This document shows positions 4,691 to 29,760 of a DNA stretch of 32,737 nt, piece by piece (positions within the stretch are counted from its first letter, which is position 1; each line of letters starts with the position of its first letter). The notes under the pieces are model-generated. The model ran no database searches. It worked only from the letters and a program-made list of their open reading frames with translations, and was not told where the DNA came from. A program made the translations under genes and the position numbers. Origin of the DNA: Arthrobacter sp. (GTDB lineage: Bacteria; Actinomycetota; Actinomycetes; Actinomycetales; Micrococcaceae); the NCBI RefSeq assembly GCF_031179385.1, contig NZ_JAPSHV010000020.1:1-32737 (forward strand), in the 5' to 3' direction.

Positions 4691-4697
4691 ACAAGCA

Positions 4698-4737: not shown

Positions 4738-4742
4738 GAGGC

Positions 4743-5645: not shown

Positions 5646-5694
5646 CACTGACGACGTCGTACTCCATATGAGCCTTCGACGCGGGCGGGGCGAC

Positions 5695-8863: not shown

Positions 8864-8872
8864 ACATGCTCC

Positions 8873-8885: not shown

Positions 8886-8913
8886 ACAGGGGATCATTTG
8901 TACCGATGCGCTA

Positions 8914-8941
8914 AATCTAGGTGTGCACAGCGGTGGAGCAA
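8914..8941 (-). promoter_or_regulatory. Putative promoter of the sugar importer operon
   Basis: On the minus strand, TTGCTC (8941-8936) and TAGATT (8919-8914) are separated by 16 bases, a reasonable sigma-70-type pair. Transcription would begin near 8907, giving a leader of about 45 bases before the ATG at 8863. The inverted repeat at 8873-8885 lies inside that leader. Confidence 0.35.
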
Positions 8942-9036
8942 CATAGCGATATGAGCCTTCCCTATGGACGATCCGCTAAACCTTCGAGGCACAGACGAGG
9001 CCTGAGCATGGATGACCACCCGTTCTGGGACGCAGA

Positions 9037-9078
9037 AAGGGCTGGCCACCCCGGAGGAGTCCGGGACAGCCAGCCCTT
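9037..9078 (-). terminator. Strong terminator of the P450 operon
   Basis: A two-tier hairpin: outer arms AAGGGCTGGC and GCCAGCCCTT pair over ten bases, and inside them CCCGGA pairs with TCCGGG around a short CTCC loop. It lies 17 bases after the stop of the MHS transporter gene and ends in TTTC on the minus strand, so it fits a factor-independent terminator with a short U run. Being nearly symmetrical it may also stop plus-strand read-through. Confidence 0.8.
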
Positions 9079-9094
9079 GACGGAGTGGGAGAGC

Positions 9095-10477: not shown

Positions 10478-10534
10478 GTTTTCTCCTGGGATGAACGGTG
10501 AATGAGGTGGATGCGATTGGTTTCAGGATTGGTA

Positions 10535-11773: not shown

Positions 11774-11776
11774 GGC

Positions 11777-12100
11777 CTACACCTGTCCCTCAGGGATGTC
11801 GACGACGATGCCGTCCAATTCCGTGCTGACGCGAACCTGGCAGCCCAAACGGGAGGCGTCGGTTCGTTCGGCAGTGGTGCAATCGAGCATCTCCTCTTCG
11901 TCCTCGCTGATGTCGGGCAGTGCATCTGCAAACTCGGGACGGACGTAGACGTGGCAGGTGGCGCACATCGCCTGTCCCCCGCACTCCCCCACGATGCCGT
12001 TTACGTTGTTGGCGACTGCGGCGCGCATGAGGGACGTGTTGTCCTCCACGGTGACGGTGTCGGACTGGCCGCTGGGCTGGACATAGGTGATGGTAGGCAT
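11777..12100 (-). CDS. [2Fe-2S] ferredoxin, putidaredoxin/adrenodoxin type
   Basis: Soluble electron carrier of 107 residues. The cluster ligands are C40, C46, C49 and C87 in CGGQAMCATCHVYV and the later LGCQV, the CX5CX2CX37C pattern of vertebrate-type ferredoxins that serve class I P450s. C74 is an additional cysteine not expected to bind the cluster. The ATG at 12100 is preceded by AGGAGAA; an upstream in-frame extension to 12511 merely shadows the P450 gene. It lies between the P450 and the reductase and should shuttle electrons between them. Confidence 0.93.
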   Translation of the reverse strand: MPTITYVQPSGQSDTVTVEDNTSLMRAAVANNVNGIVGECGGQAMCATCHVYVRPEFADALPDISEDEEEMLDCTTAERTDASRLGCQVRVSTELDGIVVDIPEGQV

Positions 12101-12150
12101 GGTTCTCCTGAAGGAATGGTGAGTAGGAAGGGGACGCCGTGTGAGCCGGG

Positions 12151-13467: not shown

Positions 13468-13514
13468 GGCTGATCTCCTGCACTGAGCGACATTGCTGAT
13501 GGATTCAGTGTGGC

Positions 13515-13528
13515 CTGACTCATATCAG
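13515..13528. promoter_or_regulatory. Dyad CTGA-N6-TCAG in P450/LysR divergent promoter
   Basis: The 112-base AT-richer gap between the divergent P450 and LysR genes holds CTGACTCATATCAG, an inverted repeat with four-base arms, and further CAG-containing half-site-like words nearby (ATTCAG, AATCAG). LysR-type proteins usually bind short dyads in such shared promoters. No confident -35/-10 pair could be chosen. Confidence 0.3.
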
Positions 13529-13579
13529 CAGGTAAAGTACAAGAATCAGGGCTATATCCACGGTTTGGGTGAGGTGTTC

Positions 13580-14485
13580 ATGGCACGGTATACGCTCCGG
13601 CAACTGGAGGCGTTTGTCGCCGTAGCTGAACAAGGCAGCCTCACCTCCGCTGCGGAGAAGCTCCATGTGTCCCAGTCAGCCATTTCCGGTGCCATCAACA
13701 ACCTTGAACGCGTCTTCGGCGCACAGCTGACCATTCGCCGTAAGGCTCATGGAGTGACCCTTACCTCCGCCGGAAAGTACGTTCTCGACCGGTCGAAAGG
13801 CCTCCTGAACGCGGCGTCGGACCTCGAATTACACGCCTCCGACGCTGGGACCGAACTGCGGGGCGCCCTTACACTCGGCTGCTATCGCACGCTCGCGCCC
13901 ACCGTGCTCGCTGGCCTCATCGACCAGTACAGCCGGCTCTACCCACTGGTGGAGCTCGATTTCTTCGACGGACCACAGTCGGAGATTCAGGAACGGGTCC
14001 TCGCAGGCCGGCTGGATCTCGCAGTCGCTTACGACCTGGGGCTGCCCGCCGGGCTGCAGCGCAAGCGCCTGTACGAGGCTGCGCCCTCCATCGTGCTGGC
14101 AGCGGATCACCCGTTGGCGTCCCGGCCTTCCCTTGGGTTGAACGATGTGGCCGATGAACCGATGATCCTGCTGGACGTGAATCCGAGCCGCGAGAACACC
14201 ATGATGATGTTCTCCAGCGCCGGGCTGCAGCCCAATATCCGGTTCCGCACAACGGACTACGAGGTCACACGGTCGCTGGTCGGACGCGGGATGGGCTACG
14301 CAATCCTGATTCAACAACCGGCAGCGAATCAGACCTACGAAGGCCGCCCGCTTGTAGTCCACCCCATGACACCGGTCATTCGAACCGTCCCGGTCTCGAT
14401 CGTGTGGCCGGGCTCCGTGACGCCCTCCCAGAGCGCTGCCGCCATGGTGGCGCTTGCCTCCGAGCTCTACGCCGATGCCGGCTGA
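13580..14485 (+). CDS. LysR-family transcriptional regulator
   Basis: DNA-binding regulator of 301 residues. The N-terminal winged helix-turn-helix is clear: YTLRQLEAFVAVAEQGSLTS followed by AAEKLHVSQSAISGAINNLE. The rest is the periplasmic-binding-protein-like effector domain. The ATG at 13580 follows GTGAGG at a suitable spacing; the open frame extends 29 codons further upstream but those residues are unlike the family. It is divergent from the P450 operon across a 112-base promoter region, so it very likely controls that operon in response to its substrate. A hairpin at its stop codon separates it from the GH43-like gene. Confidence 0.92.
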   Translation: MARYTLRQLEAFVAVAEQGSLTSAAEKLHVSQSAISGAINNLERVFGAQLTIRRKAHGVTLTSAGKYVLDRSKGLLNAASDLELHASDAGTELRGALTLGCYRTLAPTVLAGLIDQYSRLYPLVELDFFDGPQSEIQERVLAGRLDLAVAYDLGLPAGLQRKRLYEAAPSIVLAADHPLASRPSLGLNDVADEPMILLDVNPSRENTMMMFSSAGLQPNIRFRTTDYEVTRSLVGRGMGYAILIQQPAANQTYEGRPLVVHPMTPVIRTVPVSIVWPGSVTPSQSAAAMVALASELYADAG

Positions 14486-17662: not shown

Positions 17663-18580
17663 CTATAGCGAAACGGGGTCGGTGATTATGCTGTAGTGCT
17701 CCGGACGTCGATGCTGTGAGAAGTTGAAGACGTCACGTCGGTATCGGGTGACCATGTCGAGATCGATCTCAGCGGTAACGAGCTCATCGCCCATTGTGCG
17801 CGCGGTGGCGACGATTTCGCCGGACGGCGCAATTATGGCACTTCCGCCTATTTGGCAGACGCCTTCCTCAGTGCCTGCTTTTGCTGTCCCGATAACCCAC
17901 ATGGCGTTCTGGTAAGCACCCGCCTGCATAGACAGGTGGTTCTGAAAGTCCACTAGCCTGTCGCTCTCAGGCAAATGAGGTGTCAGCGCGGGGGTGTTGT
18001 ACCCAAGGCACACTACCTCTGCCCCTCGGAGCGCCATCACCCGATAGGTTTCCGGCCATCGTCGGTCATTACAGATAGCCAAACCAATTTCTGCATTGCC
18101 CCATCGACGCACCCCGAATCCAAGATCTCCTACTTCAAAGTATCGTTTCTCAAGGTTTTGGAACGGTGCACCCTCCTGCTTCAGCTCGAACCCCGGCAAA
18201 TGAATCTTCCGATACTTATGGATGACTTCGCCGAGTTCATCAACCAGCACCGCGGTATTGAAGAACCGGTTCGCTGCTGTACGTTCGGCATATCCAAGGA
18301 CGAAAGCCACTTGCAGCTCGCTTGCGGCGTCAAAAAGCCCTTGAGTTTCCGGTCCAGGCAAACGGGTCTCGTAGAAGGTGAGAAGTTCGCTTCGGTCACG
18401 TACGAACCAATGAGGGAAAAAGGGAGTTAGCGCCGCTTCCGGGAAGACGACCAGTTGAGCTCCTTCAGAGGCAGCGCTTTCCAGTAACTTGATAAGCCTT
18501 GCCACGGTTTCCGCCTTAGTCGCGGAACGCGGAATCGGCCCGAGTTGAGCGGCCGAGACAGTGAGCGCTCTACTCTTCAC
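17663..18580 (-). CDS. Carbon-nitrogen hydrolase, N-carbamoyl-D-amino-acid hydrolase-like
   Basis: Nitrilase-superfamily amidohydrolase of 305 residues. The catalytic triad is intact: E48 in VVFPEAALTPFF, K125 in HKYRKIHLPG and C170 in ICNDRRWPET. The motifs FYET.LPGP, FQNLEKRYFE.GDLGF, GYNTP and LSMQAGAYQN closely follow the Agrobacterium N-carbamoyl-D-amino-acid amidohydrolase, which converts N-carbamoyl-D-amino acids to D-amino acids, CO2 and ammonia. The start is GTG, 27 bases after the aldolase stop, making this the last gene of the sugar-acid operon. No hydantoinase is nearby, so the natural substrate is probably not a hydantoin product; a carbamoylated or acylated amino-sugar acid is a reasonable guess. 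Confidence 0.85.
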   Translation of the reverse strand: MKSRALTVSAAQLGPIPRSATKAETVARLIKLLESAASEGAQLVVFPEAALTPFFPHWFVRDRSELLTFYETRLPGPETQGLFDAASELQVAFVLGYAERTAANRFFNTAVLVDELGEVIHKYRKIHLPGFELKQEGAPFQNLEKRYFEVGDLGFGVRRWGNAEIGLAICNDRRWPETYRVMALRGAEVVCLGYNTPALTPHLPESDRLVDFQNHLSMQAGAYQNAMWVIGTAKAGTEEGVCQIGGSAIIAPSGEIVATARTMGDELVTAEIDLDMVTRYRRDVFNFSQHRRPEHYSIITDPVSL

Positions 18581-18607
18581 TCCAGCCTGCTAGTGATCAT
18601 GATTTCG

Positions 18608-19225
18608 TCATGCCCCTGCCCCGATTCTGTCGGCGAGTATTCCGCTGATCAGATCCAGTTGACGTTCATCCGCGAGGGCAGAACCGACGGCAACAGTTCG
18701 GGCACCGGCCTCGAGGAACGCGGCAGCATTCGTGGCGTCTATCCCCCCGGTAGCTACAAACTTCACGGCGGGGAAGGGGCCTTGCATCGCTTTGAACCAG
18801 TCCGTACCCAACACGGAGGCAGGGAAAGCTTTGACCACGCTGCAACCAAGACGGACGGCTCCCTGTACTTCGCTGGGAGTGGAGACACCCGGCAGATGTG
18901 GCATTCCGATCTCGCGGCAGAGCCTGACTACTTCTTCATCCAATCCCGGTGCAACAGTGAACGCCACTCCAAGTTCCCGGCTTCGCCGGACCTGCTCCGG
19001 GGTGATCACGGTACCGGACCCAACAACCTTCCCTCGCTCTGCTCCTGCTTTGACGACTGCTTCCAGGGAGGGAACAGCGTCAGGCGATTGGATGGGCACT
19101 TCCACCAGGTCGATGCCCAGATCCCAAGCCCGCGACGCGAGCTCCACGGCACGCTTGGCCTCCATGTTCCGGAGGATCGCCATGACGGGTTGTCCTTCGA
19201 TGAGAGTCTCTACTTCAGCTGACAT
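18608..19225 (-). CDS. KDPG/KDPGal-type aldolase
   Basis: Class I aldolase of 205 residues that splits a 2-keto-3-deoxy-6-phospho-sugar acid to pyruvate and glyceraldehyde 3-phosphate. The Schiff-base lysine is K132 in VVKAFPAS and the proton-relay Glu is E42 in VEVPIQSP. That last motif is closer to the IEIPLNSP of the phosphogalactonate aldolase DgoA than to the EVTLRT of Eda, so the galacto epimer is possible. ATG at 19225 (AAAGGA upstream) overlaps the end of the kinase gene by 11 bases. Immediate coupling to a KDG kinase makes the two-step pathway almost certain. Confidence 0.9.
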   Translation of the reverse strand: MSAEVETLIEGQPVMAILRNMEAKRAVELASRAWDLGIDLVEVPIQSPDAVPSLEAVVKAGAERGKVVGSGTVITPEQVRRSRELGVAFTVAPGLDEEVVRLCREIGMPHLPGVSTPSEVQGAVRLGCSVVKAFPASVLGTDWFKAMQGPFPAVKFVATGGIDATNAAAFLEAGARTVAVGSALADERQLDLISGILADRIGAGA

Positions 19226-20249
19226 GGACAGGTCCTTTCGGTATGAATGACCTGAGGTCATCCAGATGGCTGCTGCTCAGCGAAATGCCGGCCCAGTCTT
19301 CGGGCCCCACATCGCTGAGGGACAGAATTGACTTTGCTGGCGGAAGGGCCGGCAAATCGCTGACATGTTGCAGGGTGAGACCAGCCATCAGATGGCCCAA
19401 CCGAAGAGCCCTCGGCACACCCAGGCTTCGGACCATTCCTGAGAGGAACCCGGCTGCGAAGGCGTCCCCCGCGCCCACGGGATCCACTACTTCAGCTTTA
19501 AGCGCCGGCTCGAATGTTGCGCGATCTGCGGCGAAGTGGGTGGCCCCGATTGCCGCGTCCTTCACCACTAGGTGAGGGACGTCAGGCAGGATATTGCGCA
19601 CATCTTCGGCCCGCGGGGTGTCCCAGAGGGCCTCGGCTTCGTCCCGGCCGACCACGACTATGTCCGCGCCGCGAGCCAGTTCGAGCAGGCGCGGCGCCGC
19701 TACAGCGGTGTCCCAGAGCGCAGGCCGGTAGTTGACGTCGAAACTGACCTGGACTCCTGGAACCTCACGCTCGATGATCAGGCGTTGCATAAGCGCGTCG
19801 GCCGTTGTGGACAGGGCGGGCGTAATTCCTGACACATGGCACAACGACCGCCGTTCCAGGTTCAGGGAAAGGAGGTCCTCCGGACCCATCGCCGATGCCG
19901 CCGATCCGGACCTGTAGTAAAACACACGGCTTCGGTCGGCTTCCCTATTTTTAAGGTAGATGCCTGTGGATCGCGTGCTGTCGACGACGACAGTGTCCAG
20001 CTGCACCCCCCGGTCCCGGAGGAAATCAATGATGATGCGCCCGAAAGGATCGTCACCCACCCGACTGAACCATTCGACGTCGTGCCCCAAGTGGGCCAAC
20101 CCGCTGGCCACGTTGCTCTCAGCCCCACCGACGTGAATCCCCACGTGGCTATTTTCCTCCAGCGGACCATCATCGGCGGTAAGAAGCACCATGGTCTCGC
20201 CAAGGCACAATAACGGCGGAGGACTACCTTCAGGACTCAAGTTCGTCAT
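19215..20249 (-). CDS. kdgK: 2-keto-3-deoxygluconate kinase (PfkB family)
   Basis: Cytoplasmic sugar kinase of 344 residues. GGAESNVASGLAHLG (41-55) is the substrate-binding segment, YYRSGSAASA (111-120) and DVNYRPALW (171-179) are hallmarks of KDG kinases among PfkB proteins, and DPVGAGDAFAAGF carries the catalytic Asp D262. It phosphorylates KDG, or its galacto epimer, to the substrate of the adjacent aldolase. The ATG at 20249 is preferred; the open frame up to 20576 overlaps the ATPase gene in another frame and has no kinase similarity. It is preceded by the ATPase gene with 28 bases between, so import and metabolism share one transcript. Confidence 0.9.
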   Translation of the reverse strand: MTNLSPEGSPPPLLCLGETMVLLTADDGPLEENSHVGIHVGGAESNVASGLAHLGHDVEWFSRVGDDPFGRIIIDFLRDRGVQLDTVVVDSTRSTGIYLKNREADRSRVFYYRSGSAASAMGPEDLLSLNLERRSLCHVSGITPALSTTADALMQRLIIEREVPGVQVSFDVNYRPALWDTAVAAPRLLELARGADIVVVGRDEAEALWDTPRAEDVRNILPDVPHLVVKDAAIGATHFAADRATFEPALKAEVVDPVGAGDAFAAGFLSGMVRSLGVPRALRLGHLMAGLTLQHVSDLPALPPAKSILSLSDVGPEDWAGISLSSSHLDDLRSFIPKGPVHVS

Positions 20250-20277
20250 GCTGCTATTCCAAGTTCTGTTCGGGCTG

Positions 20278-21456
20278 TCAGCTGGAAGCCATCTGCGGGC
20301 TGTCGTCGAGCAGCTCCCCGCTTTCCGTGGAATACCAGAGGACGTCGGACGCGTCGAACGAAACAGAGCACAGCTGGCCGTGTTCGAGGCGGACGTCGCC
20401 CACCAGCTTGGAGTAGAAAAGGTCTCGGGATGCTCGCGCACCGACCTCCGTGGTGTGGTCCTCAGAGCCGAACTTGAAGCCGACCACCGTCTCCGAACCC
20501 AAGTGCTCCACGGTGATGACCCGTGCAGGATAACCGCCCGATCCAGCCTCCGTATGTACCCGGACCTTCTCCGCACGGACTCCGAGATGTGCTTTTTGGG
20601 CTGCAGTGACTTCGGGTGGCGCGAATGAGAGGTCGTTGCCGAACATGTCAGCCTTGGTGCCGTGAATGTCCACAGGGATCAGGTTCATCGGCGGGGAACC
20701 GATGAATTTGGCGACGAACGTGTTGGCCGGCCGGTCATAGATCTCCTTCGGTGTGCCGTACTGCTGGACCAGTCCGTCATTGAGCACGATGATCCGCGTT
20801 CCCATGGTCATCGCTTCGACCTGGTCATGCGTGACGTAGACAAAAGTCTTCTGCACGCGATCGTGCAAGGCGGATATCTCGGCCCTCATTTGGGTCCGAA
20901 GTTTCGCATCGAGATTGCTCAGCGGCTCGTCCAGGAGATACAACGCAGGCTCGCGAATCAGTGACCGGGCCACCGCGACACGCTGCCGCTGGCCGCCCGA
21001 GAGCGCCTTTGGCCGGCGGTCAAGGTAGTCAGTCAGCTCCAGCATTTCCGCTACATCAGTGATCTTCGCTGCAATGTCTTTTCGGTTCATCAACGCACGA
21101 CGCGCGAACCCGCCGACCACCGGAATATGGTGCCACCATTTGAAACTGTCCATGATCAGAGGGAATCCGATGTTGGCCCGTACGCTCATGTGCGGGTACA
21201 GCGCATACGACTGGAAGACAAAGGCGATATTCCTCTTCTTGGGCTCCAGGTCGTTTACAACCACTCCATCAAACTTCAGCTGCCCCTGGGAGATGTCCGT
21301 CAGGCCTGCGATCATTCGAAGCATCGTGGACTTTCCGCAGCCTGAGGGGCCGAGGAGAACCAGGAACTCCTTATCCGGAACCGTTGCATCAAAGCCTTGA
21401 ATCACGGTGTTACCCGCGAAATTCTTGCTGACGCGGTCAAATTCAATTGTTGGCAT
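20278..21456 (-). CDS. Sugar ABC transporter ATPase (MalK/UgpC type)
   Basis: ATP-binding subunit of 392 residues for the importer encoded immediately upstream. Walker A is GPSGCGKST (36-44), the Q loop VFQSYALYPHMSV, the signature LSGGQRQRVAVARSL, Walker B LYLLDEPLSNLD and the switch His VYVTHDQVEAM. A MalK-type C-terminal regulatory domain follows. Between the Q loop and the signature there is an extra stretch of about 15-20 residues (FKWWHHIPVVGGFARR) not present in E. coli MalK. The start lies four bases after the permease stop. Having its own ATPase distinguishes this importer from the one at 5695-8863. Confidence 0.93.
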   Translation of the reverse strand: MPTIEFDRVSKNFAGNTVIQGFDATVPDKEFLVLLGPSGCGKSTMLRMIAGLTDISQGQLKFDGVVVNDLEPKKRNIAFVFQSYALYPHMSVRANIGFPLIMDSFKWWHHIPVVGGFARRALMNRKDIAAKITDVAEMLELTDYLDRRPKALSGGQRQRVAVARSLIREPALYLLDEPLSNLDAKLRTQMRAEISALHDRVQKTFVYVTHDQVEAMTMGTRIIVLNDGLVQQYGTPKEIYDRPANTFVAKFIGSPPMNLIPVDIHGTKADMFGNDLSFAPPEVTAAQKAHLGVRAEKVRVHTEAGSGGYPARVITVEHLGSETVVGFKFGSEDHTTEVGARASRDLFYSKLVGDVRLEHGQLCSVSFDASDVLWYSTESGELLDDSPQMASS

Positions 21457-21460
21457 GGAA

Positions 21461-22297
21461 CTATCCCTTTACTGATCCGGCGGTTAGCCCGGAAACGATC
21501 TTGCGTTGCATGAGAAGGAAGAAAACAACAGCCGGGATGGTGAATACCAGGGCAGCGCTGAAAACGGTGTCCAGCGGCGTCGAGAATTCACCGATGAAGG
21601 AGGCAAGGCCTGTGGAGGCAACCCATGACGACCTGTCCTCGATGAAGGTGGTCGCAAACAGGTACTCATTCCAGCCATCGAAAAAGGTGATGACCGCGGC
21701 CGCCGCCATAGAGGGTGCAACCAACGGGACAACCATCACCTGGAGGATGCTCAGAGGGCTGCAGCCGTCGACCCTGGCGGATTCCTCGAGTTCATATGGA
21801 ATGTTGTCGATCGCCGATTTGAGGATGAAAAGAGCTACCGGCATAGCGAATGCTGTGTTCACAAGGACGAGTCCGTGCAGCTGGTTGAGCAGGCCCAGCG
21901 CCGCGAACAACGAGTAGAGCGGCACAACCAGCAATGCTTCGGGAAGCATCTGCGTGGCGAAGAAAAGGAAACCCATGGGTCCTTTGCCGACGAACTTATA
22001 GCGGGACAGGGCATAGGCGCCCATCGTCGCCATCAGAAGGCTCAGGAGTGTTGTGCCGAACGCCACGAAGGCTGAGTTGGCCATCCAGCGAAGGAACGGG
22101 GTGTCAGTGGTGAGTACCGAGAATACCTGCAGGCTGCGGGAGAAATCAGGGACGAGATTCTGTCCCCCCTGGAACAAGACATCGGTTGGGGTCATCGCTG
22201 TGTTGATGATCCAGTAAAGGGGGAAACCTGCCAGGCAGGTCAGCAGCAACGCGAGCAGCGCCCGGATCCCTGTGCCCAGGCGACGACGACCGATCAT
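21461..22297 (-). CDS. Carbohydrate ABC transporter permease (MalG type)
   Basis: Membrane subunit of 278 residues with six spans. The EAA loop reads LEESARVDGCSPLSILQ, in the normal position before the last two spans. The ATG overlaps the stop of the MalF-type permease by four bases (ATGA), and the ATPase gene begins four bases after its own stop, so all importer genes are translationally linked. Ligand is inferred from the operon: a sugar acid that feeds KDG metabolism. Confidence 0.92.
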   Translation of the reverse strand: MIGRRRLGTGIRALLALLLTCLAGFPLYWIINTAMTPTDVLFQGGQNLVPDFSRSLQVFSVLTTDTPFLRWMANSAFVAFGTTLLSLLMATMGAYALSRYKFVGKGPMGFLFFATQMLPEALLVVPLYSLFAALGLLNQLHGLVLVNTAFAMPVALFILKSAIDNIPYELEESARVDGCSPLSILQVMVVPLVAPSMAAAAVITFFDGWNEYLFATTFIEDRSSWVASTGLASFIGEFSTPLDTVFSAALVFTIPAVVFFLLMQRKIVSGLTAGSVKG

Positions 22298-23241
22298 GCG
22301 TTCGCTCCGTTCTGCTTGTTGGCGCGCAATTCGAGCACGAAGTAGATGGCTGTGACGATTAGTGACAGGACAAGCCCCAGCATGCCGATTGCGGCAGCCA
22401 CGCCGAGCTGGCTGTTGTTGAATGCCTGCCGGTAAACGTCGATGACAATCGTCGTCGTCGCATCTACGGGACCACCGCCGGTGAGCAGCCAGATGATTTC
22501 GAACCGCCTGAATGACCAGATGGTCATCAACAAGCCGACGACGCGCAGGGTGGGCATCAGGAATGGTAAGACAACGAGCTTGAAGGTGCTGTAACTACCG
22601 GCTCCATCGACTCTTGTGGCCTCATAGAGGTCCTCCGGCACGGACTGCAGGGCGGCCAAAACCACGAGCATCACGAAGGGCGTGACCTTCCATACGGTGG
22701 CGACAACCACCGAGAACATGCCGTAATCCGGGTCTGTGAGCCATCCGCGCTCCCCTAGGCCCAAGGCGGTTGTGGCCGCGTTTGCTACGCCCGAGGAGTC
22801 GTTGTAAATCCAGCGAAACACCAGGACGACTGCCACTGTGGGCACAGCCCAGGGCATGACCATGACGGCCCGTGCCAACGTACGCCCGGGAAACTTGCGA
22901 TTGATGACAAACGCTGAGATTGTTCCCAGGGTGAGGGACGCGACGACGGTGAAAGCTGTATAGACAAGCGTGGTGAGGACAGACTTGAAGAAAGCGCCAC
23001 TGCCCAGTAGCCGCTCATAGTTCTCGAAGCCAATATAGGTACCGCCGGTCGGATTGAGGAGACGCGTGTCGGTGAAGCTCAGGTCTAGGCCCTTGAGCAG
23101 GGGAACGACAGCGAACAATACGAGGTAGAGCACGGCCAGCCCGATGAACAAGTAGGGCGTCCAGCTGAAGCGTCTGCGCTTGTTCCTGGGTGGCGGATCC
23201 GCGGTTGGAATACGGTCTCTGGTTGGGGCGTGGGTAGTCAT
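22294..23241 (-). CDS. Carbohydrate ABC transporter permease (MalF type)
   Basis: Membrane subunit of about 315 residues with a 35-residue basic cytoplasmic tail and six spans. The EAA loop is LYEATRVDGAGSYSTFK. ATG at 23241 is chosen; a 20-codon longer frame runs into the hairpin that follows the binding-protein gene. GAGAGA upstream is a weak ribosome site, consistent with lower expression than the binding protein. It pairs with the MalG-type subunit that overlaps its stop codon. Confidence 0.92.
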   Translation of the reverse strand: MTTHAPTRDRIPTADPPPRNKRRRFSWTPYLFIGLAVLYLVLFAVVPLLKGLDLSFTDTRLLNPTGGTYIGFENYERLLGSGAFFKSVLTTLVYTAFTVVASLTLGTISAFVINRKFPGRTLARAVMVMPWAVPTVAVVLVFRWIYNDSSGVANAATTALGLGERGWLTDPDYGMFSVVVATVWKVTPFVMLVVLAALQSVPEDLYEATRVDGAGSYSTFKLVVLPFLMPTLRVVGLLMTIWSFRRFEIIWLLTGGGPVDATTTIVIDVYRQAFNNSQLGVAAAIGMLGLVLSLIVTAIYFVLELRANKQNGANA

Positions 23242-23261
23242 CGATGAGTTCTCTCGATAGG

Positions 23262-23299
23262 GCAGGGTGTCCGGTCGGCACTCCCGGCGGACACCCTGC
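23262..23299 (-). promoter_or_regulatory. Intercistronic hairpin between binding protein and permease
   Basis: GCAGGGTGTCCG and CGGACACCCTGC form a perfect 12-base stem with a 14-base loop in the 65-base gap after the binding-protein gene. No U tract follows on the minus strand. It is placed to protect the binding-protein message from 3' decay or to reduce read-through into the permeases, as known for mal operons. Confidence 0.65.
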
Positions 23300-23306
23300 A
23301 CAGAGG

Positions 23307-24584
23307 CTAGGGAGCCAGGTTCTCAGCTTGTTGCTGGGCTGCGTCCATGGCCTCTTGGGCGGAGATGCCTGTGGTCAGCATCCGCTCAACCTGAGTCAGG
23401 ACGATGGTGCGGACCTGCGGGGTCTGCGTTTCAAAACCCGGGATGACGACTGACGACGAGTTATCGAGTTGCTCGTAGAACGCTTCGATCCAGGGGTTTG
23501 CCTCAACCAGTTCTGCGGGAGCCTCGACGTCTGTGGCGATGCCTGACGGGAACAAAGCCTCGACGAAGGTGGACTGCGCGTCAGCGGTCATCATCCATTT
23601 GATGAAGTCCTTGGCGAGCTCCTTGTTATCTGAATTCGCATTGATTCCGATAGCAAATCCGGCATAGGCGGAGCCGCCGCCCGGGAATGGCAGGGTTGAG
23701 GCAGAGACCTCTGAGGACTCGACACCGTCCCCTGAAACCATGGTGAGGAGAGCTGAAGAGTTGTCGATCACCATGCCGACCTCACCGGCTGCGAACTTGC
23801 TGCGGTAGGTAGAAGCGTCGTCGCCGACACCGAAGCCACCTGAGTTATAGGCATTGAGGTACGCATCCGCCGCGGCGACATTTTCCTCGCTGTTGATGGT
23901 GAGGTTTTCGCCGTCCGACCACGCACCACCGAACCCGTAGACCCAGTTGCTGTAGTCAGTCCACCAAGGTGCTTCTTCATTGAGCTGGTGACGGACGACG
24001 AAACCGGTCTTCCCTGTTTCATCTTGAATCGTTTTGGCCGCGCTGGCCAGTTCTTCTGCTGTGCCCGGAGGTTCGACGCCGGCCTCGGACATGATGGTGT
24101 CGTTGTAGAAAAGCGCGTATGGCACTGCCTCCCACACCAGACCCAGTTGTTCACCTTCGAACTGGTAGGTCTCATTCGACGGACGAAGTGCTTCTTCGCT
24201 CTCCGGGTCAAGGATTCCGTCAAGGGGTTCGAGCGCACCGGAGGCCGCAAGCTCCGGGAAGAACGGATCGGGGATGATCATGATGTCCGGGCCGCCTCCC
24301 GATCCAATCTGGGTGCTGACCGTCTTTTCGTAGTCGGCCCGGGTGATCTCCTGGGTCTCGATGGTGGCGGCAGGGTTGACAGTTTCGTACTGCTTCACAG
24401 CAGCCAGAATGTCCTCGCCCCGGCCGGGCTCCAGCCACTGCCAATTGGCAAAGGTGAGCGTTCCGCCTTCTTCCGCCGCCGGGCCGTCGTCCTGTGCTCC
24501 CCCGCCCCCGCCGCTACAGGCCGTGAGAGCCAGCGCAAACACTGCAAGCGACGCCGCGTTCTTCATTACTGATTTGTTTTTCAC
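23307..24584 (-). CDS. Sugar-binding lipoprotein of ABC importer
   Basis: Family 1 solute-binding protein of 425 residues. The signal is a short basic start, hydrophobic core and lipobox LTAC with Cys23, followed by a glycine-rich tether. Mature sequence features such as LTFANWQWLEPGRGEDIL and NWVYGFGGAWSDGENL are typical of sugar binders. GTG at 24584 is chosen because AGGAG stands six bases upstream; the internal ATG at 24566 would still leave a usable signal. It is the first gene of the seven-gene operon, under a promoter that carries TGTTGCA motifs. From its partners the ligand is expected to be an amino-sugar acid or a precursor. Confidence 0.92.
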   Translation of the reverse strand: MKNKSVMKNAASLAVFALALTACSGGGGGAQDDGPAAEEGGTLTFANWQWLEPGRGEDILAAVKQYETVNPAATIETQEITRADYEKTVSTQIGSGGGPDIMIIPDPFFPELAASGALEPLDGILDPESEEALRPSNETYQFEGEQLGLVWEAVPYALFYNDTIMSEAGVEPPGTAEELASAAKTIQDETGKTGFVVRHQLNEEAPWWTDYSNWVYGFGGAWSDGENLTINSEENVAAADAYLNAYNSGGFGVGDDASTYRSKFAAGEVGMVIDNSSALLTMVSGDGVESSEVSASTLPFPGGGSAYAGFAIGINANSDNKELAKDFIKWMMTADAQSTFVEALFPSGIATDVEAPAELVEANPWIEAFYEQLDNSSSVVIPGFETQTPQVRTIVLTQVERMLTTGISAQEAMDAAQQQAENLAP

Positions 24585-24606
24585 TAACGACTCCTGGTTG
24601 TGCACC

Positions 24607-24625
24607 TGTTGCAACACGTGTTGCG
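24607..24625. promoter_or_regulatory. TGTTGCA-type operator upstream of importer operon
   Basis: TGTTGCAACACGTGTTGCG contains the perfect 10-base palindrome TGTTGCAACA, the overlapping 14-base palindrome GCAACACGTGTTGC (24611-24624) and two TGTTGC half-sites in direct order. It lies just downstream of the predicted -10, where a repressor would block transcription. The same word recurs before the deacylase gene (26267-26300), next to the IclR-family regulator, the best candidate to bind it. Confidence 0.55.
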
Positions 24626-24634
24626 GTATATGCC

Positions 24635-24663
24635 ATATTGTCAGTGCCGACGATTTTTGTAAA
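24635..24663 (-). promoter_or_regulatory. Putative promoter of the sugar-acid importer operon
   Basis: On the minus strand TTTACA (24663-24658) and CAATAT (24640-24635) are spaced by 17 bases; transcription would begin near 24628. The word CTGACAAT, which overlaps the -10, also occurs upstream of the deacylase gene at 26323-26330, another hint of shared control. Confidence 0.4.
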
Positions 24664-24683
24664 TAGGGCTGGTCGTTCTGGCT

Positions 24684-26267
24684 CTAGCGGCGGCGGACTG
24701 CCCTCCCGGGCACAGCAGCAGTACGTGCACCGCGCTCGATTGTGGCTACGCCGTTGACGAACACGTGATGGACACCTTCCGGCGCGACTTTCGGACTGTC
24801 ATAAGTGGCCAGCGACGCTATGCGTTCCGGATCAAAAACCACAAGATCCGCCCAATTGCCTTCCGCGACAACACCACGGTCCGTCAGGCCCAGACGCCGT
24901 GCAGGACGGGACGTGGCGTGAAGCACGGCTTCCTCGAGGGTGAGGACTCCGAGCTCGCGAACGTAGTGCCCGAGAAACCGGGGAAAAGTGCCCCATCCCC
25001 TGGGATGGGGCTTCTCACCCACCAAGATTCCGTCACTGCCGACGGTATGGGCTTTGTGGCGCATGACGGATCGGACATTTTCCTCATTGCCCACCTGCAC
25101 CAGACACCCAGCACCGAATTTGTCAGCGAGAAGTAGATTTAGGAACGCATCTCCGGCAGGCACACCAGCTTCCGCTGCGAGTTCGTCAATCGTCTTCCCC
25201 ACTGCATAGGCGTTTCGTGGGTTCTGCGTGGATGCGATGACGATGGTTTCCCAATCCATGGGGACGCCATGATGTCCATCCGACCCCTCGACTTCGATCT
25301 CGTGCAGAATCCGAACCCTCGCAGCCGGATCATTCAGCAGCCCAGTCAGTGCATCAGTGCCGCCTTCATGGACCCAGCTCGGCAACAGGGCAGCCAGGTA
25401 CGTCGCGCCGGCCAGATAGGGGTAGGCGTCCAAGGTGATATCCAGACCGTCGGCCATCGCCCGATCTAGGGCGGAAAGGACCTCCGACGCGCGGCCCTTG
25501 TTTTGGGGAAAGTTGATGTGGCAATGCGCCAAGTGAAGCGGCACTTGGGCCCTGCGGGAAATCTCGATGCAGTCGACGTATCCCTCGACCACCTCAGCTC
25601 CGTAATTGCGGTGATGCGGGCAGTAGTACCCGCCAATCTGCCGCACTGCACCCAGTGCGTGAACGAGCTCCTCGTCTGATGCGTACATGCCGGGCGTATA
25701 GGTGAGACCGGTGGACATCCCCATGGCCCCATCCATCAGGCCCTCGGCGACCAACGCTCGAATCTGCTCCAGCTCGTCAACGGTCGCCGGACGGGCCTGG
25801 GTGCCCATGACGTTCATCCTGACAGTCCCGTGCGGAACCAGAACGGCGACATTCACGGCACAACCCTTATCAACCTCGGCAAGGTACTGTGCGATGCTGC
25901 GCCAGGCATAATCCAGGTCGGGTTTCCCATTCCATCCGGCTATCTGCTCCCGGGTCACCGCCATGACGTCATCACTTACCGGTGCGTACCCGAGCCCGTC
26001 CTGGCCCACAACTTCCAAAGTAATGCCCTGTGCCACCTTCGAGACATGCTCGGCATCTGAAAGGACAGCTAGGTCGGAATGCGCGTGCATATCGATGAAG
26101 CCCGGAGCCACGATCATTCCGGTGACATCCAGGTCTTCACCTTCGGCAGCGCTTCCCGGCTCCAGGATGCGCACGATTCTTCCGTCCTTAATCCAAACAT
26201 CCGCGCGATAACGCGGCCCACCCAGGCCATCGATCACTGAACCGCCACGCAGTATCAAACCGGCCAT
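24684..26267 (-). CDS. N-acyl-D-amino-acid deacylase-like amidohydrolase
   Basis: Metal-dependent amidohydrolase of 527 residues, D-aminoacylase family. Visible sites are HAHSD (H61, H63), PHHRNYG (about 218), LHLAHCH (245-250), and GSDGILVGEKPHPRGWGTFP with the catalytic Asp near 412. The family's usual GNCG motif, whose Cys bridges the zinc, reads GQDG here (D90), so metal binding or specificity may differ from true D-aminoacylases. The ATG at 26267 has only a weak ribosome site and overlaps a TGTTGCA word. It lies upstream of the importer operon and is divergent from the IclR regulator. D-glucosaminate is itself a D-amino acid at C2, so N-acyl-D-glucosaminate is an attractive substrate. 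Confidence 0.85.
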   Translation of the reverse strand: MAGLILRGGSVIDGLGGPRYRADVWIKDGRIVRILEPGSAAEGEDLDVTGMIVAPGFIDMHAHSDLAVLSDAEHVSKVAQGITLEVVGQDGLGYAPVSDDVMAVTREQIAGWNGKPDLDYAWRSIAQYLAEVDKGCAVNVAVLVPHGTVRMNVMGTQARPATVDELEQIRALVAEGLMDGAMGMSTGLTYTPGMYASDEELVHALGAVRQIGGYYCPHHRNYGAEVVEGYVDCIEISRRAQVPLHLAHCHINFPQNKGRASEVLSALDRAMADGLDITLDAYPYLAGATYLAALLPSWVHEGGTDALTGLLNDPAARVRILHEIEVEGSDGHHGVPMDWETIVIASTQNPRNAYAVGKTIDELAAEAGVPAGDAFLNLLLADKFGAGCLVQVGNEENVRSVMRHKAHTVGSDGILVGEKPHPRGWGTFPRFLGHYVRELGVLTLEEAVLHATSRPARRLGLTDRGVVAEGNWADLVVFDPERIASLATYDSPKVAPEGVHHVFVNGVATIERGARTAAVPGRAVRRR

Positions 26268-26321
26268 GTTGCATCACTTCGCATTCTCGTTAATGTTGCA
26301 TATGCTGCACATACGTGTGCA
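26267..26321. promoter_or_regulatory. TGTTGCA repeats and dyad in deacylase/IclR divergent promoter
   Basis: The 91-base gap between the divergent deacylase and IclR genes holds two direct copies of ATGTTGCAT (26266-26274 at the deacylase start and 26293-26301), the palindrome GCATATGC (26298-26305) and the dyad TGCACA-TACG-TGTGCA (26306-26321). Together they could support cooperative binding of the regulator and autoregulation. A TATATA and the AAGGGG ribosome site lie on the IclR side. Confidence 0.5.
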
Positions 26322-26358
26322 AAATTGTCAGAGCGCGATCAGTATATAAGGGGTCTAC

Positions 26359-27093
26359 ATGTCTCAGGCAGTCCAGAGGGCTATCGAAATTTTGGAGTTC
26401 CTGTCAGAAGGGCCCAGAAGTCTCAGCGAGACGGCGAGGCGTTTCGATGTCCATCGCTCTACGGTTCTTCGACAGCTCCAGACCTTCGAAGACGCCGGAT
26501 TTGTGCTGCGCAGGGCAAATGGCCACTACAGCATCGGCCCCAAGGTCATCTCCATTGCGCAACAGGCTCTGGACGGGCTCGACCTGCCCGCAGTCGCGCA
26601 TGATGAGCTTCGCAAACTGCAGGCTAAGACGGGGAACACCATCCACCTTGCGCAACTGGTGGAATCTACGGTCATGTACGTCGACAAAGTGGAAGGCCGG
26701 GACAGTGTGAGGATGTATTCGCGGATCGGCAAGACAGTCCTGCCGCACTGCACCGGCGTTGGTAAAGCCATTTTGAGCCAACTCCCCTCCACCCGCCGGG
26801 ACACCATCCTCGCCAATGCAGAATGGACAGGGTTCACGCCCCAGACGATCACCTCCCGCCCGGCACTCGATGAGCAACTTGACCTGATCCGCTCCAGAGG
26901 CTGGGGTGTCGATGACGGCGAGTTCGAGGACTTTGTGAACTGCATCGCGGTGCCGGTCACCAACTCAAGCAGGAGCATTGTGGGCGCAATCTCGCTCACT
27001 TCCATAAAGGTTGTGGCCACACTGGATGATCTGATGACCCATCTCAACGACCTTCAGAGCACCGCCTCCAACATCTCCCGTCAACTAGGTTGA
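26359..27093 (+). CDS. IclR-family transcriptional regulator
   Basis: Regulator of 244 residues: an N-terminal winged helix (QAVQRAIEILEFLSEGP, then LSETARRFDVHRSTVLRQLQ, residues about 3-60) and a C-terminal IclR effector domain with the typical RIGKTVLPHCTGVGKAIL and GWGVDDGEFEDFVNCIAVPV segments. AAGGGG stands five bases before the ATG. It heads the plus-strand operon with the PLP enzyme, RidA and oxidoreductase genes and is divergent from the deacylase. IclR-family members such as KdgR control KDG pathways, so a KDG-type intermediate is a plausible effector. Confidence 0.93.
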   Translation: MSQAVQRAIEILEFLSEGPRSLSETARRFDVHRSTVLRQLQTFEDAGFVLRRANGHYSIGPKVISIAQQALDGLDLPAVAHDELRKLQAKTGNTIHLAQLVESTVMYVDKVEGRDSVRMYSRIGKTVLPHCTGVGKAILSQLPSTRRDTILANAEWTGFTPQTITSRPALDEQLDLIRSRGWGVDDGEFEDFVNCIAVPVTNSSRSIVGAISLTSIKVVATLDDLMTHLNDLQSTASNISRQLG

Positions 27094-27110
27094 TTCCTTC
27101 GAAAGGCACC

Positions 27111-28238
27111 ATGGGCATCTATTCAGACCTCGGCGTACCACCTGTCATCAATGCCGCAACGACGTTCACCGCCCTCGGCGGGTCCCTTATGCCCGACGAA
27201 GTGCTGGACGCCATGCGTGATGCCGCCGGATCTTTCATCGATATGCACCAACTTCATCTCGCGGCCGGCAGACGCATTGCCGAACTGACAAGGAACGAAG
27301 CCGCCTATGTGACCTCAGGCTGTGCTGCTGCACTAGTGCTCGTCCTCTTGGGCATCCGCACCAAGGGCGACCCCAGCGTCCTGCGTGATTTTCCCGGCAG
27401 GGAGCATGCACCAAGCGAGGTGATCATGCATGCCGCGCACCGCATCCCCTACGATGCGGCCATAGCCCTGTCCGGAGTCACCGTGCGGCAGATCGGCAAT
27501 ATCCAACAAACGTTCGAATGGGAGCTGGAGGCGGCCATTACGAAAGAAACGGCAGCCGTGCTCTACGTCGCCGGTCCGCACCTGCCGCAGGTCGCGCTCC
27601 CGCTGCCCGAAGTGGTGCGCATAGCCAAATCCCGGGGAGTTCCGGTGATTGTCGACGCGGCCGCTCAACTTCCGCCGGTGGAGAATTTATGGCACTTCAC
27701 GAGAGATCTAGGTGCTGACATTGCGGTCTTTTCGGGTGGCAAGGCCCTACGGGGTCCTCAGGCGAGCGGACTCATGGTCGGCAACCCGGACATCATCGAG
27801 GCCGCCCGGCAGAACGGCGCTCCCTTTCAGCGCTGGGCGCGTGCAATGAAGGCAGGCAAGGAAGAGATAGCTGGCCTGGTGGCCGCCGTCGAGCGCTTCG
27901 TGAATCTTGATCACGCGGCGTTGCACGAAGAGTGGCAGGCCACCGTCGATGCGTGGGCGCTGGCGCTTGCCGACCTTCCCGGCGCGATCCTCCAACCGGA
28001 ATTGCTCAATGAGGCCGGTCAACCCGTCCCCCGCCTCTATGTCGGTATACCAGACAGCTCGCGGGCCTCGCGCGTACTAGCCGCTTTGGATGGTGCGGCG
28101 CCTCGGATAGCCGTACATCCAGATAAGCGCAACGGATCGGCATACGGCTTCTGGATCGGGCCGGACCTCCTTCAGGACGGCGAAGCCGCAATTGTGGAAG
28201 AGAAGGTACGGGAAGCCGTGCGTGGCAGCAGAGACTGA
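27111..28238 (+). CDS. SelA/DgaE-like PLP enzyme, probable amino-sugar-acid ammonia-lyase
   Basis: Fold-type I PLP-dependent enzyme of 375 residues. PLP contacts are visible: TSGCAAAL (68-75, phosphate cup), VDAAAQLPP (D182, pyridine nitrogen) and FSGGKALRGPQASG with the Schiff-base K211. The overall pattern (VINAATTFTALGGS at the start, FSGGKALRGPQ) places it with the SelA-like group that includes D-glucosaminate-6-phosphate ammonia-lyase DgaE, which makes KDG-6-phosphate. The neighbouring KDG kinase suggests that here the unphosphorylated amino acid is deaminated to KDG. ATG at 27111 has GAAAGG upstream; the TTG at 27090 that overlaps the IclR stop is less likely. Confidence 0.82.
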   Translation: MGIYSDLGVPPVINAATTFTALGGSLMPDEVLDAMRDAAGSFIDMHQLHLAAGRRIAELTRNEAAYVTSGCAAALVLVLLGIRTKGDPSVLRDFPGREHAPSEVIMHAAHRIPYDAAIALSGVTVRQIGNIQQTFEWELEAAITKETAAVLYVAGPHLPQVALPLPEVVRIAKSRGVPVIVDAAAQLPPVENLWHFTRDLGADIAVFSGGKALRGPQASGLMVGNPDIIEAARQNGAPFQRWARAMKAGKEEIAGLVAAVERFVNLDHAALHEEWQATVDAWALALADLPGAILQPELLNEAGQPVPRLYVGIPDSSRASRVLAALDGAAPRIAVHPDKRNGSAYGFWIGPDLLQDGEAAIVEEKVREAVRGSRD

Positions 28239-28291
28239 CCGAAGTATCCGAGCACTTATCCGCATCAATCAAACTCAACAGGAGAATCATC

Positions 28292-28672
28292 GTGAGCAAG
28301 AAGGCAATCACCATTTCTAACGCTCCGGCACCGGCTGGACCTTACAACCAGGGAATCGTTGCAAATGGTTTCCTCTATACGGCGGGCTTCGGTCCGCAGA
28401 ATCCGGCCACAGGCGAGGTGCCCGAAGGTGTTGCGGCGCAGACCCGTCAGGTCCTGCGAAACATCGAAGCAGTCCTCACCGAAGCCGGCGCCACCTTCGC
28501 CGACGTAGTCAAGGTCACCACGCACCTGCAGCACCTCAAACGGGACTTCGCAGAGTACAACGAGGCCTACATGGAGTTCTTCCCGACCCCATACCCCGTG
28601 CGAACGACCGTTGGGTCGGATCTCTACGACATTCTCGTAGAGATTGATGTCGTTGCCGCGCTTCCCTCCTGA
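28292..28672 (+). CDS. RidA-family enamine/imine deaminase
   Basis: Small trimeric-type protein of 126 residues of the RidA/YjgF family. The key arginine is present (R104 in YPVRTTVG, matching R105 of E. coli RidA), as is the glutamate in VEIDVVA (E118). RidA proteins hydrolyse the reactive enamine/imine released by PLP-dependent dehydratases and ammonia-lyases. Its place 53 bases after such an enzyme suggests a dedicated role in completing the deamination to the keto acid. The start is GTG, with AGGAGA seven bases upstream. Confidence 0.92.
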   Translation: MSKKAITISNAPAPAGPYNQGIVANGFLYTAGFGPQNPATGEVPEGVAAQTRQVLRNIEAVLTEAGATFADVVKVTTHLQHLKRDFAEYNEAYMEFFPTPYPVRTTVGSDLYDILVEIDVVAALPS

Positions 28673-28692
28673 TTAGGTCCGGGGCATTGACA

Positions 28693-29760
28693 GTGAGCGC
28701 GAAACCGGCGGCCCGCACCGAGCCCCTACGGATCGGGATTATCGGCGCCGGCACCATGGGCCGCAAACACGCCGGCATCCTCGGTCGAAACGGATCGGCG
28801 ACGCTCGTCGCTGTCGCCGATCCGGCAACAACTGCCCTTGCGGAGGAATACGGCGTCCCCTGTTTCGCCGAGCACCAGACGCTGCTTAGTTCGGAGAAAC
28901 TGGATGCGGTGATCATCGCCAATCCGAACGGGTCCCACGTTGCGACGGCGCTGGATTGCCTGAGCGCCGGTGTGCCTGCGCTTCTTGAGAAACCGATTGC
29001 AATCTCCTACTCGGAAGCTGCAAAGCTGGTCAAGGCTGCTGACTCCGCAACCACTCCAATTCTGATGGGACACCATCGGCGGCACCATCCGGCGGTTGAA
29101 GCTGCACACGGCCTCATCGCCAGAGGAGAGCTTGGTGACATCGTGGCTGTCAGCGGCACCTGGCTCACCAAGAAACCGGACTCCTATTTTGACCAGGCCT
29201 GGCGCAGGATGCCCGGTGCCGGCGTCATGCTCATCAACCTGGTTCATGATCTGGACCTCTTCCGTCATCTCTGCGGAGAGATCATCTCTGTGCAGGCAAA
29301 GACGAGTAGCGCCGCCCGCAAGCTAGCGGTGGAGGACACCGCTAGCGTCATTGTGGAATTCGAAAGCGGCGCATTGGGCTCATTCATCATCTCCGACTCC
29401 GCAGTCGCACCGTGGGGCTGGGATCAGGTGACCGAAGACGATCCGGCCTTCCCCTTCAATCCCTCGCTGTCCTGCTACCGGATAGCCGGCACGCGCGCCG
29501 CACTCGAATTCCCTCAATTGGCAAAGTACTACTACCAAGGGATTTCGGACTGGAACCACCCGCTGTGCATGAGTTACCAGGCCACGGGCATGGGAGATTC
29601 ATACTCTCGACAGCTTGAGCACTTCATCGAGGTGGTCCGCGGCAGTTCCCCTCCAGCCGTAAGCGTCATGGACGGGGCTCAGTCACTCGCGGTTGTGGAA
29701 GCGGTCAGAGAAGCGGCACTGACCGGCCGCACGGTTCAGGTTTCTGATATCACCGGCTAG
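28693..29760 (+). CDS. Gfo/Idh/MocA-family oxidoreductase
   Basis: NAD(P)-dependent dehydrogenase of 355 residues. GIIGAGTMG (15-23) is the Rossmann nucleotide site, LLEKPIA the catalytic EKP segment and GVMLINLVHDLDLF contains the family's active-site His. Members oxidise hydroxyl groups or the anomeric carbon of sugars, inositols and sugar acids. GTG at 28693 is favoured over TTG at 28687 because GGGG stands eight bases upstream. As the last gene of the IclR operon it might oxidise the free amino sugar to the aldonate or remove an epimer; which one cannot be decided. No terminator is evident after it. Confidence 0.88.
   Translation: MSAKPAARTEPLRIGIIGAGTMGRKHAGILGRNGSATLVAVADPATTALAEEYGVPCFAEHQTLLSSEKLDAVIIANPNGSHVATALDCLSAGVPALLEKPIAISYSEAAKLVKAADSATTPILMGHHRRHHPAVEAAHGLIARGELGDIVAVSGTWLTKKPDSYFDQAWRRMPGAGVMLINLVHDLDLFRHLCGEIISVQAKTSSAARKLAVEDTASVIVEFESGALGSFIISDSAVAPWGWDQVTEDDPAFPFNPSLSCYRIAGTRAALEFPQLAKYYYQGISDWNHPLCMSYQATGMGDSYSRQLEHFIEVVRGSSPPAVSVMDGAQSLAVVEAVREAALTGRTVQVSDITG

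Follow-up and report, generated by a model that had tools for sequence, protein, structure and literature searches.

The DNA analysed here, referred to as the window, is the stretch from position 1 to 32,737 of contig NZ_JAPSHV010000020.1 from an Arthrobacter sp. genome (assembly GCF_031179385.1; 3.2 Mb in 233 contigs, 92% complete). Positions 17663–29760 carry twelve genes, eight on the minus strand and four on the plus strand, that probably encode an inducible catabolic pathway for an N-acylated amino-sugar acid. Their arrangement in two divergent units, and the family labels given to them in an initial annotation, were borne out by gene calls and by Pfam and NCBIfam matches. Reading outwards from the divergent promoter, the minus strand encodes a D-aminoacylase-like N-deacylase (DAA, 24684..26267; Amidohydro_3, E 3.9e-35), a solute-binding protein (SBP, 23307..24584; PF01547, 1.5e-33) with an open reading frame (ORF) open from 24617, a likely start near 24584 and a lipoprotein-like N-terminus by eye, two CUT1-type ATP-binding cassette (ABC) permeases (PERF, 22294..23301, and PERG, 21461..22297; both PF00528), a MalK/UgpC-type ABC ATPase (20278..21456; Pfam and NCBIfam family matches), a PfkB-family kinase of about 344 aa for 2-keto-3-deoxygluconate (KDG) or 2-keto-3-deoxygalactonate (KDGal) (KDGK, 19215..20249; NF040938, E 2e-50, below cut-off), an aldolase of the 2-keto-3-deoxy-6-phosphogluconate (KDPG)/2-keto-4-hydroxyglutarate (KHG) type (18608..19261, start at 19261 or 19225; PF01081, 4e-38) and, as an accessory, an N-carbamoyl-D-amino-acid hydrolase-like protein of 305 aa (NIT, 17663..18580; CN_hydrolase, 5.9e-57). 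The KDGK start probably lies near 20249 and not at 20576; the 453 aa version would overlap the ATPase gene. The plus strand encodes an IclR-family regulator (26359..27093; IclR_C, 3.4e-41), a DgaE/SelA-like ammonia-lyase dependent on pyridoxal 5′-phosphate (PLP lyase, 27090..28238; TIGR01437, 1.1e-55, 168 bits, below cut-off), a RidA-family enamine/imine deaminase (28292..28672; PF01042, 1.7e-30) and an accessory Gfo/Idh/MocA dehydrogenase (GFO, 28687..29760; PF02894 and PF01408). Motif comparison identified two putative operators, one in the divergent promoter (26296..26309, plus strand) and one upstream of SBP (24601..24614, minus strand). The NCBIfam cut-off was reached by none of the twelve genes, so their substrates cannot be read from the models.

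The PLP lyase is rare: with the source genome included, it was found in 5 of 395 family genomes (E 1e-50 or better) and in 7 of 394 genomes at class level (E 1e-60). A scan of genome contigs returned 87 relatives, of which 80 were kept, and eight loci (the window, L006, L007, L008, L009, L010, L012 and L093) encode a lyase of at least about 62% identity. Within the fetched stretches, genes for DAA, IclR, RidA and KDG kinase lie near the lyase gene in all eight of these close loci, and the aldolase gene in seven, with none found in L009. The grouping is not due to chance, and the expectation of the initial annotation that deacylase, PLP enzyme, RidA and KDG kinase would stay together was upheld. 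The conserved module comprises six genes, namely those for DAA, IclR, PLP lyase, RidA, KDG kinase and KDPG aldolase. NIT and GFO, which the initial annotation had counted in the island, are present in the window but lie outside this core: within the limits of the fetched flanks, a D-carbamoylase gene adjoins the cluster in two of seven loci, and a Gfo/Idh/MocA gene was found in two of the five with a judgeable flank, L007 and L009 ending too early. These seven loci, designated PLP-type, are the close loci without a gene for a DSD-domain deaminase; a DSD match was absent from the six fetched PLP-type loci examined and present in the eighth close locus, L010 (Arthrobacter sp. HY1533, genome G289), which we treated as mixed. 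ABC genes sit between DAA and KDGK in four of the seven PLP-type loci. Arthrobacter sp. H5 has no ABC block and instead encodes an in-frame DAA-KDGK fusion of 873 aa with both domains (L006:6546-9167), linking the first chemical step to the third; the frame could encode a genuine bifunctional protein or have arisen by a recent deletion at the site of the ABC genes.

The closest structural match of the PLP lyase was 7lc0 (1.3e-37), the phospho-sugar lyase DGL. Excerpts of the DGL paper (PMC9529869) give His163 as the donor of the C3 proton and place the manually docked substrate phosphate near Arg301, Arg332 and Arg346. We took Lys213 of DGL, which lies in an SGAK motif, to be the PLP lysine and aligned 95 distinct sequences, the window included, after dropping hits with less than 60% coverage or with stops. 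The PLP lysine is kept in all 95, His163 in 13 and Arg301 in 35, and no sequence has Arg at position 332 or 346, where 14 and 15, respectively, have a gap. His163 and Arg301 are both kept in all eight close loci, none of which has Arg332, and Arg346 is replaced by Asp in all eight. The window lyase retains the PLP lysine (Lys218) and the proton-donor histidine (His164), and carries Arg315, His343 and Asp359 at DGL positions 301, 332 and 346; the alignment near Arg332 is uncertain by two residues, MAFFT giving His343 and HMMER Asp345, neither of them Arg. A Lys or Arg lies near position 332 in Arthrobacter and is missing in Nocardiopsis. Because the catalytic Lys and His are kept while phosphate-binding Arg residues are lost, we infer that the close group acts on an unphosphorylated substrate. 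The window enzyme thus shares with DGL (PMC9529869, in the parts consulted) the sequence family, the PLP Lys, the His163 proton donor and Arg301; it differs in lacking Arg332 and Arg346, and in belonging to a route without a phosphotransferase system in which the kinase would act after deamination. Loss of the two Arg residues offers a residue-level hypothesis of how relatives of a phospho-sugar lyase would act on the free sugar acid.

A second, related cluster is frequent in the family. DAA matches at E 1e-80 or better were found in 68 of 395 family genomes, 49 of them at 48% identity or more by hand count; among these 49 the window genome, G028 (Arthrobacter sp. H5) and G402 are of PLP type only. 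We fetched 20 sister loci, mostly from the top of the list, and 18 of them contain genes for aldolase, DAA and a DSD protein divergent from KDGK, IclR and RidA. The exceptions are L171, which begins inside the cluster at a contig edge, and L168, which has DAA only. Sixteen of the 20 have a GntP-family permease match nearby, one of them weak. Strong GH20 matches accompany five, all of one genus; no PLP-type cluster has a GH20 match beside it. The best structural match of the DSD protein is the D-serine deaminase 3gwq (2e-60), of a group to which the fold-III deaminase OngC is described as distantly related (PMC9537276, in part). OngC belongs to the ong pathway of Pseudoalteromonas prydzensis, for which the same source lists OngB, OngC, OngD, KdgK and OngR. 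With its GntP permease, GH20, deacylase, OngC-type deaminase, RidA, KDG kinase and KDPG aldolase, the sister cluster is by analogy a close counterpart of the ong cluster. In L181 (G194), at about 500–8000, the IclR, DAA and GntP matches by tblastn are each split in two, and this sister cluster looks broken by decay or assembly error.

Distribution of the two deaminases varied among the genomes with a PLP-type or mixed cluster. A genome search with the DSD protein gave no match at E 1e-15 in G402, which has the PLP cluster; in the window genome the single match is distant (39%) and lies on a different contig, and G028 has one of 46% and a distant one. Nocardiopsis trehalosi (G533) has a DSD relative (34%) beside a GH20 gene on another contig. 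Arthrobacter sp. AQ5-06 (G313) carries a complete DSD cluster beside its PLP-type cluster, and HY1533 carries a DSD cluster with an adjoining PLP-SDR-RidA module. The simplest reading is that one deaminase replaced the other in the single-type loci, and the two-type genomes leave room for two substrates. Replacement inside one genus, as G289 at first seemed to offer, was rejected, as L010 and L094 do carry a DSD gene by tblastn.

Both cluster types have a promoter signature in common. A TTGCR-N5-TGCA core is conserved in all seven PLP-type DAA/IclR divergent promoters, which formed the learning set, and all four ABC-bearing PLP-type loci, the window included, have another copy immediately upstream of SBP. 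Before testing DSD-type loci we widened the motif by one letter ([TC]GCA) to TTGCR-N5-YGCA. It was then found in the KDGK/DSD divergent promoter of 21 of 21 loci with DSD and KDGK matches (L168 and L171 left out; L165 and L169 nearly identical), compared with 11 hits across the remaining 384 kb. Both strands match at the DSD-type sites, and one strand only at the window sites. The two matches in the window are weak when taken alone, with 8 of 100 shuffles reaching two, and an inverted-repeat search of the window promoter found none at the settings used. On the basis of linkage, the IclR protein is the putative binder of these sites, and the sharing of one motif by both cluster types suggests related inducers.

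The best structural match of DAA was a D-aminoacylase (1.5e-80), followed by N-acyl-D-glutamate deacylase and the amidohydrolase 9g5m, and then by PpOngB (3.3e-61). Residues were mapped using AfDam numbers that we presume to be correct. OngB positions were then reached indirectly, by shifting the numbering of the printed AfDam alignment by two, or by one for the Cys, OngB itself standing outside our alignment. Residue roles in PpOngB, a deacetylase of N-acetyl-D-glucosaminate (GlcNAc1A), were taken from excerpts of PMC12017989 (PDB 9kb1). The window DAA keeps the catalytic Asp412, the metal ligands His218 and His248, and His61, His63, Tyr190, Tyr282 and Arg423; as a D-aminoacylase-like amidohydrolase it has in common with PpOngB the equivalents of His68, His70, Tyr194, His222, His252, Tyr285, Asp368 and Arg379. 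It differs at the metal-ligand Cys97, where it has Asp90, and, by the same indirect mapping, at Glu226 (Tyr222), Lys254 (His250) and Ser290-291-292 (Gly-Ala-Thr, with Gly287 and Thr289). Asp at the Cys position and Tyr at the Glu226 position occur in 33 of 33 rows of the DAA clade. The subtype V Cys/His/His metal site and the sugar-hydroxyl ligands of OngB are thus not found in DAA, which by its residues is not OngB and has a predicted Asp/His/His metal site. Five of 15 mapped positions differ from AfDam in all seven PLP-type rows. In a tree from which four poorly fitting or off-clade rows had been dropped, the seven PLP-type rows grouped together (94/92, narrowly missing the tool's star) and separately from a 22-row DSD lineage (100/99) into which the DAA of HY1533 fell. 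At AfDam position 252, which corresponds to a carboxylate ligand in OngB, the seven PLP-type rows and four other-family rows have His, and the 22 Micrococcaceae rows of the DSD lineage have Thr. The DAA-clade member of L168 (G237), which lies outside any cluster, has Ala aligned at the catalytic Asp position, which may point to a different function or to a local error of alignment.

RidA proteins act on enamines and imines, and KDG kinase followed by KDPG aldolase yields pyruvate and glyceraldehyde 3-phosphate. Taken together, the data favour an inducible non-phosphorylative operon for an N-acyl-2-amino-2-deoxy-D-aldonic acid, most likely GlcNAc1A, and we put the probability of this reading at roughly 0.65. 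The ABC importer would take up the acid, and DAA, judged by its family and its predicted Asp/His/His site, would remove the N-acyl group. The PLP lyase would then release ammonia from the unphosphorylated amino-sugar acid and leave a 2-keto-3-deoxy acid, RidA would handle the enamine or imine, and KDG kinase and KDPG aldolase would complete the route, with the IclR protein controlling both operons through the TTGCR-N5-YGCA motifs. The sister cluster would perform the same conversion using an OngC-like deaminase together with a GntP permease, so that deamination in the window would be catalysed by a non-homologous enzyme. A non-phosphorylative route for an N-acyl amino-sugar acid had been proposed in the initial annotation; linkage, the gene fusion, the lost phosphate-binding Arg residues and the sister cluster speak for it, and its interpretation as a whole gains partial support.

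Several observations weigh against this assignment. Distant PLP relatives mostly lack a DAA gene nearby, a DAA match being present in only 7 of the 80 scan loci, including a Chloroflexi locus whose enzyme is of the Cys type. DAA is nearer to D-aminoacylase than to PpOngB and lacks, as mapped above, the OngB residues Cys97, Glu226, Lys254 and Ser290-292. The nearest structure to SBP is the acarbose/maltose-binding protein GacH, a maltose-type likeness. Neither NIT nor GFO could be assigned to a step of the proposed pathway. Both deaminase types occur in G289 and G313, possibly for two substrates. Searches for an AA10 lytic polysaccharide monooxygenase (LPMO) were negative in all five Micrococcaceae genomes that carry the PLP lyase, and GH20 was not found in the 92% complete window genome, G028 or G402, leaving no evident local source of GlcNAc1A. 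H5 also holds a second operon (G028:C52; L184, about 6442–10257), in which a Cys-type deacylase (35%), a DSD protein (46%) and a D-carbamoylase (48%) are encoded in a row, with no matches to the other cluster genes and no promoter motif.

The same pathway could serve another acid, such as N-acetyl-D-galactosaminate, a further epimer or an acid with a different N-substituent, leaving N-acetyl-D-glucosaminate to the DSD-type cluster. The presence of both types in G313 and G289, the split at position 252 of the deacylase (His in 7 of 7 PLP-type enzymes, Thr in the DSD lineage) and the GH20 genes that accompany five of 20 fetched DSD-type loci and no PLP-type locus are all consistent with such a division. 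Against it stand the common promoter motif, with the related inducers that this suggests, and the aldolase, which scored higher with the Eda model (155.1 bits) than with the KDPGal aldolase model (135.5 bits), both below cut-off; we consider this alternative unlikely.

General scavenging of N-acyl- or N-carbamoyl-D-amino acids, with a PLP enzyme that deaminates D-Ser- or D-Thr-like substrates and sugar genes that are mere neighbours, appears improbable. The similarity of DAA and NIT to D-aminoacylase and D-carbamoylase would fit this explanation, as would the reported activity of OngC on D-Ser and D-Thr (PMC9537276, in part). The second H5 operon, likely an ordinary N-acyl/N-carbamoyl-D-amino-acid operon, demonstrates that deacylase/DSD/D-carbamoylase runs exist without the tested sugar genes or the motif, and that D-carbamoylase and deacylase travel together; H5 nevertheless keeps the window-type cluster as a distinct locus in the same genome. 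KDG kinase accompanies the deacylase in 8 of 8 PLP-type or mixed loci (as a fusion in one of them) and in 18 of 20 DSD-type loci; NIT lies beside only two of seven loci, and DAA departs from AfDam at the five positions noted above. A phosphorylated route, in which a kinase would first make the amino-sugar acid 6-phosphate and the lyase would act as Salmonella DgaE does, agrees with the DgaE-like family of the lyase and with the kinase-first order predicted for Natrarchaeobius (PMC12343721, in part) but is very improbable given that Arg332 and Arg346 have no Arg counterpart in the 95 sequences, that the closest structure to KDGK is the KDG kinase 1v19 (4.1e-45), and that phosphorylated GlcNAc1A was not processed in the ong system (PMC9537276, in part).

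The GlcNAc1A operon proposed here follows the order of the ong pathway, in which N-deacetylation comes first and is followed by conversion of the free amino-sugar acid to KDG by a deaminase with a RidA partner, and then by KDG kinase; a D-aminoacylase-like deacylase, a PLP deaminase, RidA and KDG kinase are all encoded together here. The logic of the pathway has a precedent, its class being already known as ong (PMC9537276, in the parts consulted); the initial annotation had mentioned a related route in marine Pseudoalteromonas and had taken the gene combination to be new. The ong study found phosphorylation first to be unproductive, which supports a kinase acting after deamination; its excerpts also describe the addition of a kdgA gene to the ong genes in Vibrio, Klebsiella and Serratia. 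The window differs from ong in its DgaE/SelA-like deaminase in place of the fold-III OngC (the DSD-domain enzyme being found in the sister cluster), in its ABC importer in place of an SSS transporter, in an IclR rather than a MurR/RpiR regulator, in the lack of GH20 in the cluster and of AA10 LPMO in the 92% complete genome, and in its deacylase, which belongs to a different clade and has Asp in place of the metal-ligand Cys. Excerpts of a study of Natrarchaeobius (PMC12343721) describe chitinase clusters with DGA, IclR and RutC genes. Common to both systems is a DgaE-like gene near IclR and RutC-family genes, the archaeal clusters being chitin-related and their route predicted only; it differs from the window in its archaeal host, in CE14 deacetylation before C1 oxidation and in an unknown kinase acting on glucosaminate. 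A literature search, judged from titles and the openings of abstracts, returned no account of such a pathway in actinobacteria.

The label "oxidative" given to the island in the initial annotation could not be sustained. Chitin oxidation by the organism's own LPMO was rejected: besides the missing AA10 LPMO and GH20, the only GH18 match in the 92% complete window genome is below cut-off. In the absence of AA10 LPMO and GH20, the acid must come from outside or from another reaction; the window bacterium looks not to be a chitin degrader and would use acid made by others. GH20 is present in G289, G313 and G533, and G313 has a partial GH18 match above cut-off. We also considered, and set aside, a link between LPMO and the DAA clade in the family. 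The clade was present in 7 of 12 LPMO genomes and 42 of 383 others (Fisher p 1.5e-4, kinship ignored), counting by hand 49 DAA-clade genomes at 48% identity or more, PLP-type included; five of the 12 are without the clade, and the association carries little weight. An LPMO gene lies about 15–40 kb from the cluster in G150, G166 and G194, all of one genus, and the LPMO neighbours in L180 and L182 look like housekeeping genes by eye. A paper on chitin use by Antarctic Arthrobacter mentions LPMO as background in the part consulted (PMC13106269).

If the GlcNAc1A assignment is correct, an ong-related route, marked by a distinct promoter signature and using either of two deaminases, would be frequent in Micrococcaceae, and C1-oxidised chitin products would be cross-fed to bacteria without evident LPMO or chitinase. 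Direct catabolism of oxidised amino sugars has been described for marine Gammaproteobacteria, and the two clusters would represent a natural case of enzyme replacement at one pathway step. A bolder proposal, which we regard as doubtful, is that actinobacteria have assembled a second amino-sugar-acid pathway independently, which exists beside the family's GlcNAc1A cluster, with the first SelA/DgaE-fold lyase to act directly on an unphosphorylated amino-sugar acid, an Asp/His/His deacylase clade, and a substrate other than GlcNAc1A, either the galacto epimer or an N-carbamoyl form entering via D-carbamoylase.

An N-carbamoyl acid is a possible second entry substrate through NIT. The closest structures to NIT are D-carbamoylases (E 1.3e-101), over its full length and with the PE, KYRK and CNDRR blocks aligned. 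The Glu, Lys and Cys residues and the CNDRR block, which we take to be catalytic in D-carbamoylases, are present in the alignment to 1erz. For the carbamoyl reading and the pair of amide hydrolases emphasised in the initial annotation the evidence is divided: NIT is an infrequent neighbour of PLP-type loci, and a related D-carbamoylase occurs in the second deacylase/deaminase operon of H5. D-carbamoylase was rejected as a conserved partner, the matches in the Gemmatimonadetes loci L053 and L065 looking like general synteny by eye. The best NCBIfam model for GFO is inositol 2-dehydrogenase, followed by archaeal UDP-GlcNAc 3-dehydrogenase, both below cut-off, and its best structural match is 3q2i, a dehydrogenase without a name.

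Other gene contexts were seen among the PLP relatives. L011 (Acidimicrobiaceae, 54%) combines the lyase with genes for RidA, KDGK, aldolase, an ABC transporter, an SDR and an MR_MLE enzyme, with no DAA match. MR_MLE (enolase superfamily) genes adjoin PLP relatives in L011, L012 and L108, together with an SDR gene in L011 and L108, as if a parallel sugar-acid dehydratase entry were travelling with them. In L106 (G645), a different context, the relative (52%) follows an ABC-ATPase-like ORF and lies beside a glutamate-dehydrogenase-family gene. Elsewhere in the window, positions 9095–14485 encode a cytochrome P450, a pyridine-nucleotide-disulphide (ferredoxin-reductase-type) protein, an MFS sugar-type transporter and a LysR regulator, with no visible link to the island. 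Positions 75–8884 encode a DUF5107/TPR protein, a cellulase-like protein, an AraC regulator, and ABC permease and binding proteins, and are probably another sugar-uptake locus of the same contig.

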